From Bacteroidota bacterium (GTDB lineage: Bacteria; Bacteroidota; Bacteroidia; Bacteroidales; PUMT01): a DNA stretch of 38,980 bases. Below, piece by piece: positions 337 to 31,902 of the stretch. The stretch is taken from positions 1 through 38,980 of the forward strand of contig PWHJ01000050.1 in assembly GCA_003554865.1 (NCBI GenBank). Reading direction: 5' to 3'. Positions within the stretch are counted from its first letter, which is position 1, and every line of letters starts with the position of its first letter. Under the pieces are notes generated by a model. The model did no database searches. It was not told the origin of the DNA and saw only the letters and a list, made by a program, of their open reading frames with translations. Position numbers and translations under genes: made by a program.

Positions 337-3300
337 TTGTTTCAAGTGAAAAAGTTTGTAAGATTTGTTTTGAAGCTGCTGGCTGTGGTTGCCGCTGCAG
401 TGTTAATGCTGGCGGTAATTCTGGTTTTATCCCTCAGGACAATACCCGTTCAGGAACATCTTGCAGAGAGGGTCAGCTCGGTGATAAATGAAAGGACAGG
501 TCTGGATGTGGGGGCGGAAAGGCTTATAGTTCTTTTCCCGGGGTACGTGGGAGTTGAAAATTTGATCGTTGGTGCGTCAAAAGGTGACTCTCTTTTATAT
601 GCCGGACATTTCGGTGCCGATGTTAATATGTTCTCTCTCTTTAAAAATCGTGTTGAAGTAAAGGAGATCACAATTGAGGACCTTCATTTACGCCTCAAAA
701 GGGAAGAGCACGATTCTCTTTTTAATTACGAGTATATACTGAAGGCTTTTGCTGAGGGAGCAAAAGAGGAGACCCGCCCCCCTTCTGAAACTTCAACATC
801 CTGGACTTTTAGCGCGGAGGCTGTAAGGATAAAAAACGCAAAGGCCGGCTATGCAGATTATCTAACAGGAACATCAATTGAGGCAGGGATAGGTATGTTC
901 ACCTGTTTTATAGAAGAGATGGATTTGCCCGGTCAAATGCTTCATTTTAAAAAGATTGGCCTGGAAGGAACTTATTTCGATTTGACATCACCTGATGATT
1001 CCGGCCGGGAAAGGGAAAAACCACAAGAGGATCTGCATTTTCGCCTGAGGGATGTCTTTGACTGGAGCATAAAGGCTGACATTTTAGATATTGCAGGCTC
1101 CTTTTTTGCAATGAGAACAGCCGGTATAAAGGAGAATCCTGTAGCGGAAGGTCTTTTGACACAAGGTCGCGTTGGGGGTGAGCCTGCTGAACGAAATGTC
1201 TCTGCTGCAACTTTTAATCCTTCAGATCTTTCTTTTTCGGATATTAATGCTTTATTTTCATCAATAAAGGTAGCCCCTGATACGGCTGCCATGAGTATTG
1301 ACCGTATGCAGTGGAAACTGGACGGGGGATTTGAACTCTCTGATATTTCTGCTGAAGTTGCAGCCGGCCGTGATCTGCAAATGGATAAACTGGTTATTGA
1401 GTCTTCCCATGCAAATATTGATGCCTCTTTTTCTGCCGGCATTAATGTTTTGGATTTCACTCCTTCAAAAACAGGCGATTTTCCTTTTAGTGCAACTGTA
1501 ACACGGGGAGAGATCGACGGGGAACTGGCCCGGTTCTTCCCGGGCCTGGACGGTTATTTGGATACGGAAATGCCCCCCCTCTCTTTTTTGCTGGAAGCCG
1601 GCGGCAGAACCGACCGTATTGCTGTTGACAGGTTTTTTCTCGATGCGCCAGGTTTGGCGGGTGCAGAAACCGAAACTGCCTTTATTGAAGGGTTGTTTAA
1701 AGAGGAGGGACCAACCCTTAATATTCCCCGCCTTTCTTTTTGGGCTCATACTCCCGGCATTATGACTTTTATACCGGAAGGAGCGGTACCGGGGGGTATA
1801 GAGTTGCCCGACACCCTAAATGCAGTTGTTTCTTTCAGCGGAAACCGGCGTTCTTTCGGGTCTTACTGCAGAATCCTTACCTCTGCAGGTGATGTTGAAG
1901 CCGATGTTTTATATTTTGCACCTCAGGGTGAGATCCCGTTCTACAAGATGGCCGTTGATGTTACCGGTCTGAACCTTTATAAGCTTGGCGGAACAGAGGA
2001 GCCGCCCGGCAGGGTTGATGCTTCTGCCAATATTGAGGGTTGGGGATTTGATCCCAAAGAGATGGATTCCGAATTTGATCTTGCCTTGCACTCTTTTGAG
2101 CTCAGCGGATATGATTACAAGGGTTTGCTCCTGGATGGGAGCATAAGGGAAGGTATTCTTGGGTCGGCGGTTGAGTATGATGACGAAAACCTTTCTTTCT
2201 CTTTTGAAGGTGAGACGAATCTGACCTCGGAGGTACCCGGTGTCAGGGGTCGGCTGGACCTTCGCCATATGGATGCCCGTGCACTGAATTTTTCACAGGA
2301 TCATATGATAATCCAAACTATTGTGGATGCCGATCTTGTGTTTAATACACCCGGCTTTGCAGAAGGCAGTCTGGAGATAAGCAATACTGGTGTGCATCAT
2401 GAAGATGATTATTACTCGTTTGAATCTTTGATGGTCAATTCTGCCTTTTCCGATGGCCGTTACAGGGTGGATGCCGACTCCCCGTTTTTTGAAGCTTTAT
2501 ATGATGGCAACTTTTCTCCTGCCGGGTTGCCGGGGGTAATGTCAGGACTTCTCAGTGAATATTTTGAATTTGGGTTGACAGAGACTGAAGATATAACCCA
2601 TGAAGACAAGAATTTTGACCTGAATGTAAATATTTACCCTTCACCGTGGTATACAGATTTTTTGTTTCCCGCGCTTGAGTCTTTTGACCCTTTTAAAATT
2701 GAAAGCAGATTTGACGGTGAAACGGGCTCTTTTTCCCTTTCTTCACTTATCCCCTTTGTCAGGTACGAGGGAACTGAATTGAGGGATTTTTCACTGAAGG
2801 CCCTTACAAGGCAGGAAACGCTTGATTTTTCCCTGTTCCTGCCTGAATTTGAAACCGGGGAGGTTTCTTTAAGGAATCTTACCGCCACCGGTGAGCTGAA
2901 GGATGATATACTCGGTTTTTCAGTCAGCTTTGATGAGACCGGCCATGATGATTGGTTTTCTCTCTCCGGCGCTGTGAGACCTGATGAAGGGGGCTTTGAG
3001 ATGACATTTGACAGGGAAGCGGTAATGGGCGGATATATGTGGCGGATTGAGGAGGGCAATTTTGTGCGGTTTGGCGGGGAAATGCCCGTTTCAGGAAAAA
3101 TATCCCTTGAATCGCAGGGTGCAAGAATTGACCTTTCGGGTTCCTACATTACCTCAAATACACCTGAAATCGACCTTGAACTGGGTCTTTCACAGCTGGA
3201 TGTGGCGTTGTTCGGGCCTTTCCTCCCGGGTGAGGTTGATGAACCTGAGGGAATTGTTAACGCTAACATAATGGCAAGAGGGAGTATGGATTCACCCGAG

Positions 3301-4842
3301 CTGTCAGGTGACATCAGTTTTCTGGAGACCGCCTTTTATTTGCACTCGGTTAATTCAAGGTTTTTTATACCCGGGGATACGCTGCTTTTCCGGGAGGATA
3401 ATATTATTCTCAGCAATTTTACTTTGACCGACAGTCAGGGGACAAAAGCGGAGCTAAACGGAAAAATCAACTTAAGGTCATACAATGATCCCCATTTCGA
3501 TCTGGGATTGACTACCAGCAACTTTATGGCCATGGATGTGCCGCAGGGATATAATGATCTTTATTACGGCAGGCTTTTCATAGACAGTGATATTAACCTG
3601 AGGGGTGGGATTAATTCTCTTGTTGCCCGGGGCGGACTGAGACTGAACGAGGGTTCTTATTTCACTATGGTTGTTCCCCAGACGTTGCCTGATGCTATAG
3701 GAGACAGGGGAGTGGTGGAGTTTATACCCCCCGGTGAGCATCTCTATCCGGTCACTGACGCGGCGCCGCTGTTTCAGCCGGCTGCCCCTTCCGCCTTCAA
3801 AACGGATCTTTCAATAAACATTGAAGTTGACCCCGGAACGGATCTCAGGGTAATAATCGATGAGCTGGCGGGAGATTATATTGAGCTCAGGGGAGGCGGT
3901 GCGATAACCTATGGCACGGATGCCCGGGGACAAACCTTTCTTTCGGGCCGCTATGAAATAGCACGGGGCAGCTACCGGATGAGCTTTTATGATCTGATCA
4001 GACGCAACTTCAGTATACAAAAGGGAAGCAGTGTTGTCTGGACAGGGGATCCGATGGAGGCGGATGTCGATATTTCCGCCTCATACAGTGTGCGAACCTC
4101 CCCTCTGGAGCTGATGGCCCATCAAACCGAAGCGGCCGGCCGCGATCCGGCAATGATGAGGCACTATCCTTTCCAGGTACAGCTTAAAATGAGGGGTGAT
4201 CTAATGCACCCGGAGATAGAATTTGAAATAACACTCCCCCCCGAACACCGGGATGCAATGGATGGCATGCTTCAGGCCAGACTTGATGAGCTCAACCGTG
4301 ATGAGTCACAGCTGAACAAGCAGGTATTTGCTCTTCTTACACTTGGGGGATTTATACGTGAGAGTCCGTTTGCCACAGCGGAAAGCGGGGCCGGACTCAC
4401 CTCGGCTGCAAGGGCAAGTGCCAGCCGGGTTCTTTCACAGCAGCTCAACAGGATGTCCGGCCGTTATATAAGGGGTGTTGATCTTAATTTTGAGGTGGAA
4501 TCATATGAGGATTATGCCCCGGGTGGGAAGGCGGGTACGACAGACCTTCATATGGAGGTTTCTAAGGATTTTTTTGACGAAAGGATGAGAATAACCGCGG
4601 GGGGCAATATTGAACTTGAGGATGAAAGAAGAAGACAGCTTTCTCCGGGCGATATTGCCGGGGATTTCTCACTGGAGTACCTGCTTGCACCCGACGGCAG
4701 TATAATATTAAAGGGTTACAGAAGAAGTGAGTTTTACGATATTTTCGAAGGTGAAGTAACCGAGACAGGGATGTCCCTGATATTTACAAAAACTTACAAC
4801 CGTATAAGGGAACTTTTTGAAAGAGATGACGAAAACCGATAA
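337..4842 (+). CDS. tamB: TamB-type translocation/assembly module protein
   Basis: A 1,501-residue AsmA-like giant. TamB proteins are anchored in the inner membrane by one N-terminal helix and span the periplasm as a long hydrophobic beta-groove linked to lipid transport and outer-membrane assembly. Visible here are a hydrophobic anchor at about residues 8-31, then a long beta-rich middle with repeated glycine/aspartate turns, and a C-terminal DUF490-like region (about 1050-1495) containing the family-typical 'LLTLGGF' near residue 1333. The start is uncertain: an in-frame stop at 328 leaves only TTG at 337 or GTG at 346. GTG gives the more usual VKKFVRF opening. The stop is 11 bp before the tamL start, so the two are almost certainly one operon, as in other Bacteroidota. 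Family assignment is firm; the exact substrate is unknown. Confidence 0.9.
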   Translation: MFQVKKFVRFVLKLLAVVAAAVLMLAVILVLSLRTIPVQEHLAERVSSVINERTGLDVGAERLIVLFPGYVGVENLIVGASKGDSLLYAGHFGADVNMFSLFKNRVEVKEITIEDLHLRLKREEHDSLFNYEYILKAFAEGAKEETRPPSETSTSWTFSAEAVRIKNAKAGYADYLTGTSIEAGIGMFTCFIEEMDLPGQMLHFKKIGLEGTYFDLTSPDDSGREREKPQEDLHFRLRDVFDWSIKADILDIAGSFFAMRTAGIKENPVAEGLLTQGRVGGEPAERNVSAATFNPSDLSFSDINALFSSIKVAPDTAAMSIDRMQWKLDGGFELSDISAEVAAGRDLQMDKLVIESSHANIDASFSAGINVLDFTPSKTGDFPFSATVTRGEIDGELARFFPGLDGYLDTEMPPLSFLLEAGGRTDRIAVDRFFLDAPGLAGAETETAFIEGLFKEEGPTLNIPRLSFWAHTPGIMTFIPEGAVPGGIELPDTLNAVVSFSGNRRSFGSYCRILTSAGDVEADVLYFAPQGEIPFYKMAVDVTGLNLYKLGGTEEPPGRVDASANIEGWGFDPKEMDSEFDLALHSFELSGYDYKGLLLDGSIREGILGSAVEYDDENLSFSFEGETNLTSEVPGVRGRLDLRHMDARALNFSQDHMIIQTIVDADLVFNTPGFAEGSLEISNTGVHHEDDYYSFESLMVNSAFSDGRYRVDADSPFFEALYDGNFSPAGLPGVMSGLLSEYFEFGLTETEDITHEDKNFDLNVNIYPSPWYTDFLFPALESFDPFKIESRFDGETGSFSLSSLIPFVRYEGTELRDFSLKALTRQETLDFSLFLPEFETGEVSLRNLTATGELKDDILGFSVSFDETGHDDWFSLSGAVRPDEGGFEMTFDREAVMGGYMWRIEEGNFVRFGGEMPVSGKISLESQGARIDLSGSYITSNTPEIDLELGLSQLDVALFGPFLPGEVDEPEGIVNANIMARGSMDSPELSGDISFLETAFYLHSVNSRFFIPGDTLLFREDNIILSNFTLTDSQGTKAELNGKINLRSYNDPHFDLGLTTSNFMAMDVPQGYNDLYYGRLFIDSDINLRGGINSLVARGGLRLNEGSYFTMVVPQTLPDAIGDRGVVEFIPPGEHLYPVTDAAPLFQPAAPSAFKTDLSINIEVDPGTDLRVIIDELAGDYIELRGGGAITYGTDARGQTFLSGRYEIARGSYRMSFYDLIRRNFSIQKGSSVVWTGDPMEADVDISASYSVRTSPLELMAHQTEAAGRDPAMMRHYPFQVQLKMRGDLMHPEIEFEITLPPEHRDAMDGMLQARLDELNRDESQLNKQVFALLTLGGFIRESPFATAESGAGLTSAARASASRVLSQQLNRMSGRYIRGVDLNFEVESYEDYAPGGKAGTTDLHMEVSKDFFDERMRITAGGNIELEDERRRQLSPGDIAGDFSLEYLLAPDGSIILKGYRRSEFYDIFEGEVTETGMSLIFTKTYNRIRELFERDDENR

Positions 4843-16571: not shown

Positions 16572-17462
16572 ATGAGAAAACTTGCGGCAGTATTGCTGAT
16601 TTTTGCATTTATCCCGTTTTATTCATGTCGCGATTCAAAAGAAGATGAGCAGGAGGAGACAGGTGAAGAGTTTATTTATGAGCCTTATGAAGAAATAGAG
16701 TATGTTAAGAGGATCTTTTACGCCCTGCCCTCTCCTGTTGAAACGGCTTTTCTCCTTAAAAGCTCTGGAGCAGTGTATGATGAAGAGTTGTTGAGTAAGA
16801 CAGAAAATTCAGGAAATTACCTTACAACAAAAAGCAAGGCCCTTAATCTTGGTATCTATATAACCGATTTAAGCTATGTGAGTTTTTTTGACCAGACACA
16901 GGAATCTATAAGGTATATGGCAACGGTGCGGGAGCTGGCCGAAAGTATGGGAGTTATGGATGCCTTTGATAACCGGACTGTTGAGCGCCTTGAGGCTAAC
17001 CTGAACAACCGTGATGTGGTCATGGATATTATATCTGAGTCTTATATGAGGTCCAGTGCTTTCCTTAGTGAAAACCGCCGGGATGCAATTGCGGCTATGG
17101 TTTTTACAGGAGGATGGGTTGAAGGGCTTTATTTAGCCCTGAATCTTGCCGATACGGGTAAAAATGGGGGGAATGGACTGGTTGAGCATATTGCCGGACA
17201 GAAACTTTCACTTGATTTGCTGATGAGGATTTTAGAGGAAAATAGCCATAACAGCGATGTTGCTGAGCTGCTTGAAGAGATGGAAAAAATATATGAGGTT
17301 TACGGGCAAATGGATGCTGCATCAACCGATTTGCGCCTGGAAACAGGTGAAGATGATAAAGCGGTAATTGTTTCCGATAGGGAGGTTAGTATGACGCAAT
17401 CACAGTTACGGGAATTGAAAAGACGTATAAACGGTGTTCGCAGCAGTTTTGTCTCTTATTAA
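16572..17462 (+). CDS. Uncharacterised helical lipoprotein, 296 aa
   Basis: The N-terminus MRKLAAVLLIFAFIPFYSC is a lipoprotein signal with Cys19, followed by a very acidic linker (about 20-45). The remaining 250 residues look mostly alpha-helical, with segments such as YALPSPVETAFLLKSSGA, KALNLGIYITDLSY and FDQTQESIRYM. I recall this pattern from a recurring Bacteroidota lipoprotein family without assigned function; no enzyme motif is seen. The stop is 10 bp before the ATG of the next gene, so the two are very likely co-transcribed and may form an envelope complex. Confidence 0.85.
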   Translation: MRKLAAVLLIFAFIPFYSCRDSKEDEQEETGEEFIYEPYEEIEYVKRIFYALPSPVETAFLLKSSGAVYDEELLSKTENSGNYLTTKSKALNLGIYITDLSYVSFFDQTQESIRYMATVRELAESMGVMDAFDNRTVERLEANLNNRDVVMDIISESYMRSSAFLSENRRDAIAAMVFTGGWVEGLYLALNLADTGKNGGNGLVEHIAGQKLSLDLLMRILEENSHNSDVAELLEEMEKIYEVYGQMDAASTDLRLETGEDDKAVIVSDREVSMTQSQLRELKRRINGVRSSFVSY

Positions 17463-17472
17463 ATTGCTTTTT

Positions 17473-17919
17473 ATGAGGCCTATTACAACGGTTTTGTTTT
17501 TTATAATAACACTGGCGGTGTCAACCGGGCCCGTCAATGCTCAGTGCAAGGTTTTTGCCGAACGCATATGCAAGGTGGAGCTGGGTTCTTATGTTCATGA
17601 CGGCAACTACCATGCGGCGATATTGTCGGAAGGCCAGGAAGCGGAGCTCTATAAAACTTTTCACGGGGGACAGGATTACAGGCTTGCCATTTGCGGTGAC
17701 GATAATCTGCCTGATATTGAATTCCGGGTTATGGATACCGATCGTAATCTTCTTTATACAAACCGTGATGATGATTACAATATAACATGGGATATTTCCG
17801 TCGAGTCAACCGAACAACTTCTTATCTCTGTCAAGGTGCCCGCCGGGGAAGGCAATTCACAGGGCGGTCCTGAAAGTGGCTGTGTGGCGATAATGTTCGG
17901 TTTCAGGGAAGAGGAGTAG
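17473..17919 (+). CDS. Small secreted protein partnered with the upstream lipoprotein
   Basis: 148 residues. The ATG at 17473 gives a good Sec signal peptide (MRPITTVLFFIITLAVSTGP, cleavage after VNA-Q); the longer GTG frame from 17434 overlaps the upstream gene and puts extra residues before the signal, so I reject it. The mature part is a likely beta-sandwich with Cys at four positions (QCKVFAERIC, AICGDD, SGCVAIMFGF), which may form disulfides. The alternation 'EFRVMDTDRNLLYTNRDD' to 'ISVKVPAG' resembles carbohydrate-binding or pre-peptidase C-terminal folds, but that is inference. It ends 15 bp from the uvrA stop on the other strand. Confidence 0.8.
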   Translation: MRPITTVLFFIITLAVSTGPVNAQCKVFAERICKVELGSYVHDGNYHAAILSEGQEAELYKTFHGGQDYRLAICGDDNLPDIEFRVMDTDRNLLYTNRDDDYNITWDISVESTEQLLISVKVPAGEGNSQGGPESGCVAIMFGFREEE

Positions 17920-23225: not shown

Positions 23226-26200
23226 TTATTCTCCCGCTTCCGCATTGTTGTTGTAGCGGCTGAAAAACTGATTTAGTTTGGTTTCTGTGGCAAGCATGTA
23301 AATGTAAGGTGTTTCCCCCCGAGGCACTCTCATTTCTCTTCTTCGTGTGCGCAAATCATCAATTATCTCTACAAATGAAGGATCTGATGAGTATGCCTGC
23401 ATAACCCCCCTTGTATAACCGAAATAATACCAATTATCTTCGTCCGCTTCAATGTAGATATCCATAAAATCTGTCGCCCCGCTTTTTGATATTTCAATAA
23501 AGCCGTTTACCTGCCTGTTGATTTTTTCACCTCCTATATATTTCAGGTTAAGCTTTCCGCTGGAACGGTAGGATTGTGTCTCCTTGTTCCACAGCAGGCT
23601 GATCCGGCTGAAAAACATAGTTTTGTCCATTTCCGGGGGAACGCCTCTCCTGCTTAAGGCTCCATCGCTTTTGCTCCTGTATTCGCCGGCAGCTTCTTTA
23701 CCAAGAAGTTCATTCAGGCCCCTGTTGAAGAAAAATCCCCCGGAATCCGGTGGTTCGCTTTCACCTCCTTTGAGAAGCTTTTCCGCCATAGCCTCTATTG
23801 CCTCTTCCGAAAAGAAGAAATCTGCACCCATCATCAGATCCAGAGATGTTTTCCCTTCCTCTGTAAGGGAGGTGAAAGAACCGGCCGCATTCAGCTTTAA
23901 CTGTCCAAGGTCTGCGCCCGGGTCAATTTTGCCCTCTCCGTATAAAATACATTCTTCCCTGTCAATACTCAGGTAATTTCCCGGATGGGAGGGATCGGAA
24001 AACCTTTCCCGAAGACCTACCCGGTATTCCCCGGTCGATGAATGATACTGAAGATATCCCCCGGCATTTATTACCGGCAGGGCGTTATCATTCCATTCCC
24101 CCATAAAGGCGGATTCAAGTCTGGAGGGATCGCCTGCAACATATAAGCCGGAATACAATCTTTTGCCGTTGACAGAATTTGGCTGCTTCTCAACCGGGAG
24201 CATTACATTCTGCGGGTTTACCTCGTATTCAAATGAGAGCCACCTGGGGTCATCTGGCCCGCAATTGAGGTAAGCCATAACCCCTCCGCTGAACTTTAGC
24301 CGGGGATTATCCGCCCGAAGAGTTACCTCACCCTTGAAGCCGAAGTGATCATTTAAACGGAAGTTATCATTTTCCGCTAACTTTCCATGAGCCGTTGTTA
24401 TCAAACTGTCACTGACACTTATCGTATCCATTCTTATAGTCTGAGTACTGCCTTTGTCGTCAATGTAATCATAGTAGCCGTAACCGAAATAACTGTTTTT
24501 CCCTTCAATTTTTAATTTTGCTTTGTGAATTGTGTGTTCCCCGGCTTCTATACGTGCATCCTCCAAAGGCTGCATTTCCGCGTTTTCTTTAACTTTAACC
24601 TCTTCCCCTGTGGGGTGGATGAGGGCATCGGCAATCCTTACATATTTCACCTCTTCTGAGGTGAGAAGGTTATTGCTGTAATCGTAGGTTGAAAGAGGAG
24701 AAATATAACTTAGCGAGTCCTGTCCCTGCCGGTATGATATATATTTTGCCCCGGCATATTCACCCGGGGCAAAAATTTTTTCTGCTCTGAGTTCAATATT
24801 CATTTTTTCAATATCCCATGAGTATGCAGCGGGATAAGCATTATAAAAAATCCCGGGAAATTTTACAATTTCATTATCGCTGTTAAGCGTGAAATTACCG
24901 TGCTGCTCTTCTATGTCAACACTTGTTTTTACGTTGGAAGAGATGAACAAAGTGTCGTTTTCCCCGCCGAATAATATAAAGTCGGTAGTATCAGACTCAA
25001 AGGTGGTTGATCCGAACGTAAAAAGAGATGAGGTTAGCCTTGCATTTTCAGCATCCAGCATTCCTTCACCGCTTAATTCTTCACGTGAAAGCACAAGGTT
25101 TCCCCTGAAAAGGGTATTTTCGTTAAAAACCCTGAAGGGTTCTTCTCCCTGCATAATCAGCAACGAGTCTTTTTCCGGAAGCCATTGAAGGGGGTTGTTT
25201 TTTGAAGCTACAAACGGATACTCTTCTTTTCCTCTCAGCTTTTCCATTTCAAATTTGCTTGCTGTTGCATTCATGGAGTCCGGGTAGAAACTGAATCCCG
25301 GGGAGTGGATGCCGGATGTGAGATATTCAACCTTACCGCCCCCTTTCAGTCCACTGTTGCTCATGGTTATCGTATCATAAAAAGTTCCCCTTTCCCCGTA
25401 CAAGGGGAGGCCTTTTTCGGTTGTTTTGTGGGTGAATCCCAGCGACATGTCTTTTTGAAGGGTAAGGCTTTCCTCGATTTCGGGGAATATTCCCCCGGAG
25501 ACGAACTTTCCCTCAAGCTCCACAAATTCAAACCTGAAAGTGCTTAAACTATCCACCTGAAAGGGAAAAAGCTCGAAATAAACCTTGTCACTTTCATATA
25601 TCCCTCCGTATATACCGGGGTTGTCGTAGTGTACATATGAGTTTTCACTACTTTGGAATTTAGGATAATCTTTATGCTCCTCCCTGCCTGATTTATTGTC
25701 GGGTTTGTCGATGTAGACCATCCCGGTCGTACTTCGTATTATGTTTTTGACATTGTTTACAAGTGCTCTCCCGTACATATCATATTCATCGCTGGCAGCC
25801 AGAATTTTTATTGAATCTATTTTTTGCATTCCTATGCTGAACTCCTCATAATCGAACTGAAAATTGTTGCCGAAAAAAGTAAGATAACCTGCATTAATTA
25901 CTCCATTGAAACGGAAATTTCTGTTGCGTTTGAGAACAATGGTGTCGTTTTCCGGGAATAAATTGACATTGTGAACATTACTGATATTTACCCCTTTAAT
26001 CCCGTTTATTTTAAGCTCATTTGTATTAAGGTACAGGGAGGCGTTCTCGCGGGGAGCATCTGTTTCGGATTCAAAAACTATTATGTCATGATCAATCATA
26101 TTGTTGTTGGCCCTGATGTAATCGTTGAGCTTGTCCCTGATAACGAAAACATCACCGGATGTGTCATAGTAAATAAAACCTTCAAGAGCAAGGTCAATCA

Positions 26201-27695
26201 GCAGATGCCTTACCCCGCTTAACGGTTTTTTTAAAAATGAGGCGAATTTTTCCACTGAAAGTTCTTCGTCTTCGTTACTTGAAGCGAATCGCCTTATGGA
26301 AAACAGGGGGTGGGTTTTTTCCATTCCATGAATGTTATGAAAATGTGCCTTGCTGAAATAATTTAATGACTCAAATTCAGCGCTTCCCCTGGAGCTTCCC
26401 CGGGGCATTGTAAAAACAATTTTATCCTCATTTACATTCCAGATAAGTCTGCCGAAATCCATGTTAACCCTGTGATAAGTGTTGGTGTAAAAGCTGCCTG
26501 ACATAACATTGTCGTTGCGGGTCAGTGTCAAATCACCCGAAACGGAGGAAAAGGCGAGTTTGAGATCGGGGTGGTAGATTGAATCGTTTTCAATATAAAA
26601 TACTATACTTGAGCTGTTTGAGTTTATTTCCTCAACGGATAGTACAAAATGTTCGGATCTGGCAACAAAAAATGTATCTTCTTTGCGTATAAACTTTAGG
26701 GTTGCTCCTGAACTTTCACTGCCCGAGCCGGTAAAACTGCCGCCCCTCATTGAAATGCCCCCGTTGTAGTGGATTTTGGGAAATATATTGTTAATTGTAA
26801 GATCTTCTCTGTAAGATCTGAAACGTGGGTAGGTTACCTTGTCTTCGTCCAGTCCCCTTGTAACGCGGTCTTCCAGAGTGCCGTAAAGATTTCCCTGAAA
26901 ATGACGCCCGAAGGCAAATTTTACCGAATCGGCCGAATAATGAGGATTTACCAGATCTATTTTGTATTCACCCAAAGTTGCCTTAACCTCATCCCGGTCA
27001 TGACCGGAGCGCTCCCATCCAACCGTTCCGTTTGAGCCTTCCCATTTTTTTTCCATTATGTTTAAAATCCCTTCCGTTTCCCTTATCACGATACTGTCAT
27101 TTCCGGAGAAACACAAAAGGTCGGTTTCGGAAAAGCTGATCAGCAGGGCTTCATCGAAGTGAAAACGGTAGCCCGACCCGGAGGCTTTCCATGTAACGGC
27201 CGCTGAACCGAAAAGTATGTTGTCGTTTAAGAGTTCGTGTACTCTCTCGAGGGACTCGTTGATAACCGATAGTCTCAGTCCGCCTTCTTCCAGGTAATAT
27301 AAGAAGGCTTCCAGCCATACGGGAAAATGGTTTCGTGCGGCGTCATGGTTTGCAAAGAGATCGAGCAGTTTCAACAGGTTGATAAAATGGGGCGCGGGTC
27401 TGGCATTTTGAATTGCGAAAAGATTGGCGGAATTTAAAATTATTTCCTTTTCACCGGTTGTAAATTGTTCTGATCTCCAGGCGGCAGTGAAACTCTCCAG
27501 CACTTCCTCTTCTTTATCGCTCAGGTTGTGCCCCATAAAATTCTCCAGCTCTTTTATGAAATTATTTTGCTCACCCGTGAAATAATCCCTGTTTTGTCCG
27601 TGCAGTTTCACTGGGCTTCCCCAAAAGAAAAGCAGCAAAATTGTGAACAGCGCAATTATGTTCTTTTTTGATCCAAAGAGAAGGCAATCCCCCAT
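23226..27695 (-). CDS. Giant secreted beta-rich protein, about 1,489 aa, unrecognised
   Basis: The ATG at 27695 gives MGDCLLFGSKKN, then a hydrophobic signal (IIALFTILLLFFWG) with likely cleavage near HGQ. A longer frame from TTG at 27749 would begin inside the terminator hairpin at 27746-27775, so I reject it. Residues about 30-160 look helical; most of the rest is alternating beta-strands with Gly/Asp/Asn turns, as in AsmA-like, LptD/OstA-like or long beta-helix proteins. A short compact segment around residues 480-530 (LSVEKFASFLKKP...GFIYYDTSG) looks different, perhaps a small winged-helix-like domain. 'NAGYLTFFGNNFQFDY' near 590 is a motif I associate with large uncharacterised Bacteroidota envelope proteins. 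I find no catalytic motif, no anchor Cys and no C-terminal sorting signal. The function is unknown. Confidence 0.85.
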   Translation of the reverse strand: MGDCLLFGSKKNIIALFTILLLFFWGSPVKLHGQNRDYFTGEQNNFIKELENFMGHNLSDKEEEVLESFTAAWRSEQFTTGEKEIILNSANLFAIQNARPAPHFINLLKLLDLFANHDAARNHFPVWLEAFLYYLEEGGLRLSVINESLERVHELLNDNILFGSAAVTWKASGSGYRFHFDEALLISFSETDLLCFSGNDSIVIRETEGILNIMEKKWEGSNGTVGWERSGHDRDEVKATLGEYKIDLVNPHYSADSVKFAFGRHFQGNLYGTLEDRVTRGLDEDKVTYPRFRSYREDLTINNIFPKIHYNGGISMRGGSFTGSGSESSGATLKFIRKEDTFFVARSEHFVLSVEEINSNSSSIVFYIENDSIYHPDLKLAFSSVSGDLTLTRNDNVMSGSFYTNTYHRVNMDFGRLIWNVNEDKIVFTMPRGSSRGSAEFESLNYFSKAHFHNIHGMEKTHPLFSIRRFASSNEDEELSVEKFASFLKKPLSGVRHLLIDLALEGFIYYDTSGDVFVIRDKLNDYIRANNNMIDHDIIVFESETDAPRENASLYLNTNELKINGIKGVNISNVHNVNLFPENDTIVLKRNRNFRFNGVINAGYLTFFGNNFQFDYEEFSIGMQKIDSIKILAASDEYDMYGRALVNNVKNIIRSTTGMVYIDKPDNKSGREEHKDYPKFQSSENSYVHYDNPGIYGGIYESDKVYFELFPFQVDSLSTFRFEFVELEGKFVSGGIFPEIEESLTLQKDMSLGFTHKTTEKGLPLYGERGTFYDTITMSNSGLKGGGKVEYLTSGIHSPGFSFYPDSMNATASKFEMEKLRGKEEYPFVASKNNPLQWLPEKDSLLIMQGEEPFRVFNENTLFRGNLVLSREELSGEGMLDAENARLTSSLFTFGSTTFESDTTDFILFGGENDTLFISSNVKTSVDIEEQHGNFTLNSDNEIVKFPGIFYNAYPAAYSWDIEKMNIELRAEKIFAPGEYAGAKYISYRQGQDSLSYISPLSTYDYSNNLLTSEEVKYVRIADALIHPTGEEVKVKENAEMQPLEDARIEAGEHTIHKAKLKIEGKNSYFGYGYYDYIDDKGSTQTIRMDTISVSDSLITTAHGKLAENDNFRLNDHFGFKGEVTLRADNPRLKFSGGVMAYLNCGPDDPRWLSFEYEVNPQNVMLPVEKQPNSVNGKRLYSGLYVAGDPSRLESAFMGEWNDNALPVINAGGYLQYHSSTGEYRVGLRERFSDPSHPGNYLSIDREECILYGEGKIDPGADLGQLKLNAAGSFTSLTEEGKTSLDLMMGADFFFSEEAIEAMAEKLLKGGESEPPDSGGFFFNRGLNELLGKEAAGEYRSKSDGALSRRGVPPEMDKTMFFSRISLLWNKETQSYRSSGKLNLKYIGGEKINRQVNGFIEISKSGATDFMDIYIEADEDNWYYFGYTRGVMQAYSSDPSFVEIIDDLRTRRREMRVPRGETPYIYMLATETKLNQFFSRYNNNAEAGE

Positions 27696-27745
27696 TCCAT
27701 ATAACAAATTGAAAACTAAACGTATAATGTTTATACGCTGTAAAA

Positions 27746-27775
27746 TCAAAAAAGTTCCCTGAGGAACTTTTTTGA
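27746..27775 (-). terminator. Terminator between tpiA and the giant gene
   Basis: A perfect 13-bp stem TCAAAAAAGTTCC/GGAACTTTTTTGA with a 4-nt loop. On the minus strand it follows tpiA by about 75 nt and is U-rich on its 3' arm. It can act on both strands. Confidence 0.8.
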
Positions 27776-27850
27776 TGCATATTGAATTGTCAGGAAAGCA
27801 ATAACCGGCTGTTCAACTTTTTCTCTGTCGAAGGCCGGCAAGCTGATCTG

Positions 27851-28606
27851 TTAAAAAGAGTTGATAATGCCGTAGAAATCTTTGGCCGAGAGAGAAGCCC
27901 CGCCTATCAGTCCACCGTCAACATCCTTGTTTGCAAACAGCTCCGGGGCGTTGGACGGCTTGCAGCTGCCCCCGTAAAGGATTACCTGTTCTTCGGCTGT
28001 CCGGGTGCTGTACTTCTCTTCCACCAGATGCCTTATGTACTGGTGCATCTCCTGAGCCTGCTCAGAAGTTGCATTTTTACCTGTGCCAATAGCCCATACT
28101 GGCTCATAGGCTATTATAACATTTTTGAGTTTTTCTTCATCCAGATCAAACAAGCCGTATTCCAGCTGTTTTTTAATAACTTCGGTGTAAATGAGCTTTT
28201 CCCGTTCATGTAATTTTTCACCGCAGCAGAAAATAGGCTTCAAATCGTTCTCAAGGGCAAGCTTGACCTTACCGGCAACCTCCAGGTCGCTTTCATTAAA
28301 ATATATCCTGCGTTCTGAATGCCCTATTATGACGTATTCGGCACCTGCTGATCTTATCATTGATGCAGACACTTCACCTGTTAAAGCACCCGAGGGCTCG
28401 GCTGCACAATTTTGCGCTGCCAGTCCTATCTTTTCTGTCAGTACTTTTTTGATCCCGGCAAGATGCGTGAAAGGGGGAGCTACAATAACATCAACGTTTT
28501 CGGGTAAACCTTTGGCTACAAGATCATTCACGGAACTTGCCAGCTTAATTCCCTCCTGAAGGGTGGTGTTTAATTTCCAGTTTCCGGCTACAATTTTACG
28601 TCTCAT
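27851..28606 (-). CDS. tpiA: Triosephosphate isomerase
   Basis: 251 residues from ATG at 28606, the standard length for this glycolytic enzyme. Catalytic residues are Lys11 in AGNWKLN, His96 in IGHSERR and Glu168 in AYEPVWAIGTGK; the phosphate-binding GGSCKPSNA is also present. A longer frame from TTG at 28633 adds nine residues, but the promoter -7 box ends only 15 nt upstream of it, and GGGAG precedes the ATG, so 28606 is preferred. It is preceded by tmk on the same strand. Confidence 0.97.
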   Translation of the reverse strand: MRRKIVAGNWKLNTTLQEGIKLASSVNDLVAKGLPENVDVIVAPPFTHLAGIKKVLTEKIGLAAQNCAAEPSGALTGEVSASMIRSAGAEYVIIGHSERRIYFNESDLEVAGKVKLALENDLKPIFCCGEKLHEREKLIYTEVIKKQLEYGLFDLDEEKLKNVIIAYEPVWAIGTGKNATSEQAQEMHQYIRHLVEEKYSTRTAEEQVILYGGSCKPSNAPELFANKDVDGGLIGGASLSAKDFYGIINSF

Positions 28607-28647
28607 ATGATACTCCCTTTTTTTGGCAACCAATTTTCAGATGATAA

Positions 28648-31257: not shown

Positions 31258-31902
31258 TTAATGTTTTTCTCTGTTTTTGAACAGGAAGCTGGCCTTTGAT
31301 TCCTGGTTGCGCAGAAGCCTCTCAATATTCTTTTGATGGGTAAAGAGCAACAGTACAAAAACGATCAGGGAAAAAATGACCAGCGAAGGAGTGGTTGTGT
31401 TGAATACAACAATCACCATAACGGGGAAAGAGAGTCCGGCTATCATCGAGCTAAGTGAAACATATTTTGTTGCAATCAGGGTTACAAGGAACACCCCGAG
31501 GCATATAAGTGTTGAGACCGGGTCGATAGCCAGTATTACTCCCACAAAAGTTGCAACGCCTTTTCCTCCCCTGAAATTGGCAAAAAGGGGAAATATATGT
31601 CCCATAATTGCTGCAAGTCCAAGCAGGAGCTGAAAATTAATGTATTCTCCTGAAACGGGTATGTGATAATGGGAGAAATGAATGAGTTTTACCGCAACCC
31701 ATCCCTTAAGAATATCAAGCAGAAGAACGGGTATTCCGGCTTTGTATCCAAGGACACGTATTGTATTTGTGCTGCCGGCATTTTTGCTGCCGTGGTTACG
31801 GACATCGATTTTGTAGAAACTTCTGCCTACCCATATGGCATTGGGTACAGATCCGATTATATAGGCCAAAAAAAGTATAAAAGCATTCCAGATCCACGGC
31901 AT
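31258..31902 (-). CDS. plsY: Glycerol-3-phosphate acyltransferase PlsY
   Basis: A 214-residue integral membrane enzyme transferring acyl groups from acyl-phosphate to glycerol-3-phosphate, the first step of phospholipid synthesis. The three family motifs are visible: GSVPNAIWVGR, the phosphate loop GSKNAGSTNTIRVLG, and GGKGVATFVG. Several hydrophobic helices fill the rest. It converges with cdaA; no terminator separates them, so read-through or antisense overlap is possible. Confidence 0.95.
   Translation of the reverse strand: MPWIWNAFILFLAYIIGSVPNAIWVGRSFYKIDVRNHGSKNAGSTNTIRVLGYKAGIPVLLLDILKGWVAVKLIHFSHYHIPVSGEYINFQLLLGLAAIMGHIFPLFANFRGGKGVATFVGVILAIDPVSTLICLGVFLVTLIATKYVSLSSMIAGLSFPVMVIVVFNTTTPSLVIFSLIVFVLLLFTHQKNIERLLRNQESKASFLFKNREKH

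Follow-up and report, generated by a model that had tools for sequence, protein, structure and literature searches.

A gene on the minus strand of a 38,980-nucleotide stretch of DNA from a Bacteroidota bacterium (the whole stretch being referred to here as the window) encodes a giant exported protein with a predicted Lpt-like jellyroll fold (23226..27695). In Bacteroidota, this protein is a strong candidate for a lipid carrier not yet described. We estimate a probability of about 0.55 that it moves a lipid or glycolipid through the periplasm as a second, very long slide. The reading frame is intact over 1,489 codons, from an ATG at 27695 to a stop codon ending at 23226, and the gene is present in one copy in its own genome. 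Residues 1-33 (27597..27695) were predicted to be a signal peptide, with Gln34, conserved in 91% of weighted homologs in the alignment, following the hydrophobic N-terminus as the new N-terminal residue. In Bacteroidetes, signal peptidase I substrates start with Gln after cleavage, the so-called Q-rule (PMC5837995), and since Gln34 is conserved directly after a hydrophobic segment, the giant protein fits this rule and is predicted to have its signal peptide cleaved. The frame, its length, the export signal and the strand-rich structural models thus all agree with the initial annotation, made from the sequence alone, of a 1,489-residue exported beta-rich protein.

That annotation had also found no recognised family, and our searches of Pfam, NCBIfam families and PDB sequences likewise returned no match to the giant protein. 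The same held for its relatives, as 14 diverse homologs compared with Pfam and NCBIfam gave just scattered single matches (E>0.02), and the T9SS C-terminal sorting domain had no NCBIfam match in the giant protein or in these homologs. Nothing was found pointing to a polysaccharide lyase or to secretion as a T9SS substrate, a plasmid search gave no match, and a literature search of partial coverage found no description of the family. Antibody matches and one designed-protein match, which appeared in sequence and profile searches, were taken as noise.

Homologs were detected in 139 of 198 genomes in the order sample and in 10 of 198 genomes in the phylum-wide sample, with every match of the latter falling in the same class, and a profile search of that phylum-wide sample recovered the identical 10 genomes. 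Because 30% of the order sample and most of the phylum sample lack the protein, it is not universally needed. A first scan of the contigs of named genomes with the single giant protein gave no match, and a scan with a 14-row alignment detected 399 related stretches, of which the 80 that were kept all belong to Bacteroidota metagenome-assembled genomes. The 122 aligned members, ranging from 1,473 to 1,774 aa, can be aligned over almost their whole length, and identity among about 120 full-length homologs is about 23-55%. An open full-length frame in that many homologs means that the ORF is not a product of chance, and the giant proteins are a large, conserved and unnamed family of Bacteroidia. 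At two loci (L208 and L212), two adjoining ORFs each match the giant protein, which means either that the gene is split or that it occurs in tandem.

Structures were predicted with AlphaFold2 for two overlapping pieces, using alignments with 101 rows, all of them natural sequences without changes. Mean pLDDT and pTM were 93.4 and 0.80 for residues 34-996, and 93.6 and 0.73 for residues 540-1489. When the two models were merged, about 98 strands were assigned, and helices were located at the N-terminus (43-158, in line with the small helical N-terminal part described earlier), at 449-530, and near the C-terminus. Strands in every region of the modelled protein are strongly amphipathic, a pattern that would also fit a closed sandwich.

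Comparison of the models with known structures by VIA-align placed Lpt proteins first for both pieces. The top 21 rows for residues 34-996 (Z 7.7 to 12.1) and the top 16 rows for residues 540-1489 (Z 9.3 to 11.8) were all LptA, LptC, LptD or LptH chains, while the first rows outside Lpt were the CPAP TCP10 domain (Z 9.1 at 6.4 Å) and winged-helix proteins (Z 7.5). For example, LptC 6mjp_C matched residues 842-970 with Z 12.1 at 2.6 Å over 121 residues, and in the 540-1489 piece with Z 11.8 at 2.4 Å over 127 residues. LptD matches of good quality fall on its N-terminal jellyroll and involve residues 307-590 of the giant protein, across the helical insert described below (9rps_A, model positions 274-557, Z 10.9, 3.0 Å over 139) and 540-749 (9fz5_A, Z 9.6, 3.9 Å over 147); LptC 4b54_B additionally matched 307-446 (model positions 274-413, Z 9.0). 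Foldseek also listed LptD among its top rows, with E of about 1e-4 to 1e-3 and a low TM over the whole chain. An Lpt-type jellyroll fold over two separate parts of the predicted structure, within about residues 307-1096, is thus well supported. The initial annotation had suggested an extended beta scaffold like that of AsmA/TamB or LptD proteins, and the Lpt side of this suggestion holds, as LptC, LptA, LptH and the LptD jellyroll rank first, but membership in AsmA/TamB is not supported, since the TamB, AsmA, DUF748 and YhdP profiles gave no match to the giant protein, with the TamB encoded in the window as positive control (1e-53). TamB and YhdP folds were not among the PDB matches listed, an absence that does not exclude a beta-taco fold.

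The two jellyroll regions appear to be related to each other. Self-comparison of the giant-protein profile, which found the duplication independently of the fold matches, paired residues 190-455 with 748-1006, 535-640 with 983-1096, and 712-859 with 803-953 at scores of 41-69, versus at most 27 for the best of reversed and shuffled control profiles. The first two pairs fit one jellyroll unit that is present twice, with the first copy split by a winged helix. This insert, residues 448-534, confirms the winged-helix-type segment that had been noticed at about 480-530; it matched 9is6_B (Z 7.5 over 64 residues) and CadC 1u2w_B (Z 7.4 over 72 residues) by VIA-align, showed weak profile matches to TFE and IclR, and is kept across the 122 aligned homologs with an occupancy of 1.0.

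From these alignments, models and matches, the following layout was derived, with all parts on the minus strand. A helical N-terminal domain of low conservation (residues 34-158, 27222..27596) precedes a beta region (159-447, 26355..27221), which matches Lpt jellyrolls from about residue 307 and, by the 9rps_A and 4b54_B matches and the self-repeat, forms the first part of the first unit. The winged-helix-like insert (26094..26354) comes next, followed by the second part of the first jellyroll (535-747, 25455..26093), assigned by the 9fz5_A match and by conservation. The second Lpt-like unit (748-1096, 24408..25454) was assigned by the 6mjp_C match and the profile self-match, and a C-terminal beta region with helices (1097-1489, 23229..24407) completes the protein. 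Cys1145 and Cys1249 of this last region (window 23949-24263) are conserved in >90% of homologs and may form a C-terminal disulfide. The segment NAGYLTFFGNNFQFDY, residues 601-616, lies inside the Lpt-like jellyroll region.

In other bacteria, a beta slide fold carries lipids through the space between two membranes, and Lpt jellyrolls dock end to end in the Lpt bridge. By analogy, once its signal peptide is cleaved, the giant protein would form a long amphipathic beta slide in the periplasm. This slide would comprise two Lpt/OstA-type jellyroll units in tandem, each about 350 residues long, with the winged-helix domain splitting the first, and would be flanked by the helical N-terminal domain and the C-terminal beta/helical domain. 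On its way between the membranes, a lipid or glycolipid would have its acyl chains sheltered by the hydrophobic face inside the jellyrolls, as in LptC-LptA-LptD, and the helical, winged-helix and C-terminal parts could dock to membrane partners. A shared Lpt fold by itself is no demonstration of function, and we infer lipid transport, together with the groove, cargo, direction and partners, from the predicted models. We regard as doubtful a further-reaching version, in which this single protein forms a near-complete periplasmic lipid bridge to the Bacteroidota outer membrane, of the order of 200 Å in length (about 98 strands at two per 4.8 Å rung), with an Lpt-like fold and a sequence unrelated to AsmA/TamB, and moves phylum-typical lipids, which include phosphatidylethanolamine, ornithine lipids and sulfonolipids.

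The gene occupies a conserved position. The same-strand gene directly upstream was prmA (80) or tpiA (14) in 94 of 105 loci, often at a gap of 30 bp or less and sometimes overlapping. In the window, tpiA (27851..28633, minus strand) is the upstream neighbour in the same direction, about 155 bp away; prmA, which in most relatives sits between these two genes, is absent here (27696-27850), as it also is in two relatives of the same GTDB family (L052 and L053). Directly downstream, the same 105 loci showed plsY in 22 cases, a convergent yfcE in 19 and rsmE in 4. The plsY product, glycerol-3-phosphate acyltransferase, performs an early step of phospholipid synthesis, and a plsY gene also lies nearby in the window (31258..31902, minus strand). 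The position of plsY directly 3′ of the giant gene in those 22 loci gives a weak hint of a lipid-related role, weak because the other neighbouring genes are general housekeeping ones. Separately, two adjacent ORFs without a Pfam match (16572-17462 and 17434-17919) have relatives that recur in five of the compared loci.

A tie to tamB/tamL, which the initial annotation had drawn from their presence in the window, was not borne out. TamB was found both in genomes that carry the giant gene (132 of 139) and in genomes that lack it (58 of 59; p=0.44), and no tamB/tamL cluster recurs beside the giant gene in the other genomes compared; in the window itself, TamB/TamL are about 16 kb away. The genome encodes two TamB proteins, one beside TamL (337-4842 of the window) and one at G000:C1:16930-18258.

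Given that the nearest folds are specifically Lpt jellyrolls, of the kind that dock end to end, the giant protein might be an accessory or parallel bridge of LPS export working with LptD or LptB2FG, in which case the cargo would be LPS or a second glycolipid and not phospholipid, sulfonolipid or ornithine lipid. We consider this unlikely, as canonical Lpt genes exist separately, OstA_2 is equally frequent with and without the giant gene and thus independent of it (p=1.0), and no lpt gene was recognised beside the giant gene in the loci examined, where the neighbours are tpiA, prmA, plsY, yfcE, rsmE and tmk. Another reading takes the slide fold as merely structural and the protein as a non-transport scaffold of outer membrane or surface assembly, for example in type 9 secretion or gliding. 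The winged-helix and helical domains do resemble modules for protein docking, there are weak matches to OspA-type single-layer sheets (Z up to 5.9), and the type 9 secretion protein SprA was present in 138 and absent from 1 of the genomes with the giant gene, versus 49 and 10 of those without it, so that 10 of the 11 genomes lacking SprA also lack the giant gene (Fisher p=2.6e-5, a test that ignores phylogeny). We gave this association little weight, because the genomes are not independent, so that it may stem from few lineages, and 49 genomes with SprA lack the giant gene; as the Lpt matches are also well above OspA, a scaffold of this kind appears quite improbable.

The pattern of conservation bears on a further alternative. 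Within the family, conservation is highest at about 655-755, in a stretch that reads IDxPxNKSG...YVYYD...QxDxSLGF, and D535, D537, N667, K668, D749 and D1023 are invariant polar residues in the homolog alignment, which is more than a plain slide needs. Those of 655-755 could form a specific head-group site or, with lower probability, belong to an enzyme. An envelope enzyme, acting for example on glycan with invariant Asp, His, Asn and Lys as its active site, would account for the conserved polar residues, above all those in 660-750, but neither the protein nor the 14 homologs match any enzyme family in Pfam or NCBIfam, and Lpt proteins, not enzymes, head the fold lists. We therefore regard an enzyme as very improbable, and a periplasmic lipid slide remains our preferred reading. 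Its significance lies in the lipid route to the Bacteroidota outer membrane, for which this giant, with its predicted Lpt fold and conserved gene position, offers a concrete candidate. A study of Flavobacterium johnsoniae found that TamL is unlikely to transport lipids (PMC12045153).

Among known systems, bridge-like lipid transfer proteins of the AsmA-like/TamB/YhdP type share with the giant protein the idea of a long beta groove and a similar size (the TamB in the window has 1,501 aa). The giant protein differs from them in its N-terminus, which resembles a cleaved signal peptide and not an anchor in the inner membrane, and in lacking linkage to tamB/tamL. OstA_2 proteins (PF13100), whose family is named after OstA/LptD, are exported Bacteroidota proteins as well, but they form a separate family, with lengths of about 500-700 aa, that is near-universal (185 of 198 genomes), and hhalign of the giant-protein profile with a profile built from 30 OstA_2 proteins gave a probability of 0.3%. 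Since the same genome also carries OstA_2, LptD_2 and two LptF/LptG-family loci, the giant protein is not a missing piece of LPS export. The closest likeness in predicted fold is to LptA, LptC, LptH and the N-terminal jellyroll of LptD (Z 9 to 12.1, 2.4-3.9 Å over 111-147 residues), with no detectable sequence homology to these jellyroll proteins: the OstA, OstA_2, LptC and LptD families had no Pfam match to the giant protein, nor was any Lpt family found among the 14 homologs. Unlike the Lpt proteins, it combines two duplicated units, a winged-helix insert, a helical N-terminus and an extra C-terminal domain in one chain, and its gene adjoins tpiA-prmA, while the canonical Lpt genes are elsewhere in the genome. 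It would be an Lpt-like slide with a winged-helix domain inserted in an exported protein, an arrangement we do not know among described Lpt proteins. Because the Lpt fold is shared by prediction and the sequence is not, we keep the giant protein apart from the Lpt family, and it should not be filed as a member of Lpt or AsmA, though it probably works like an Lpt slide.
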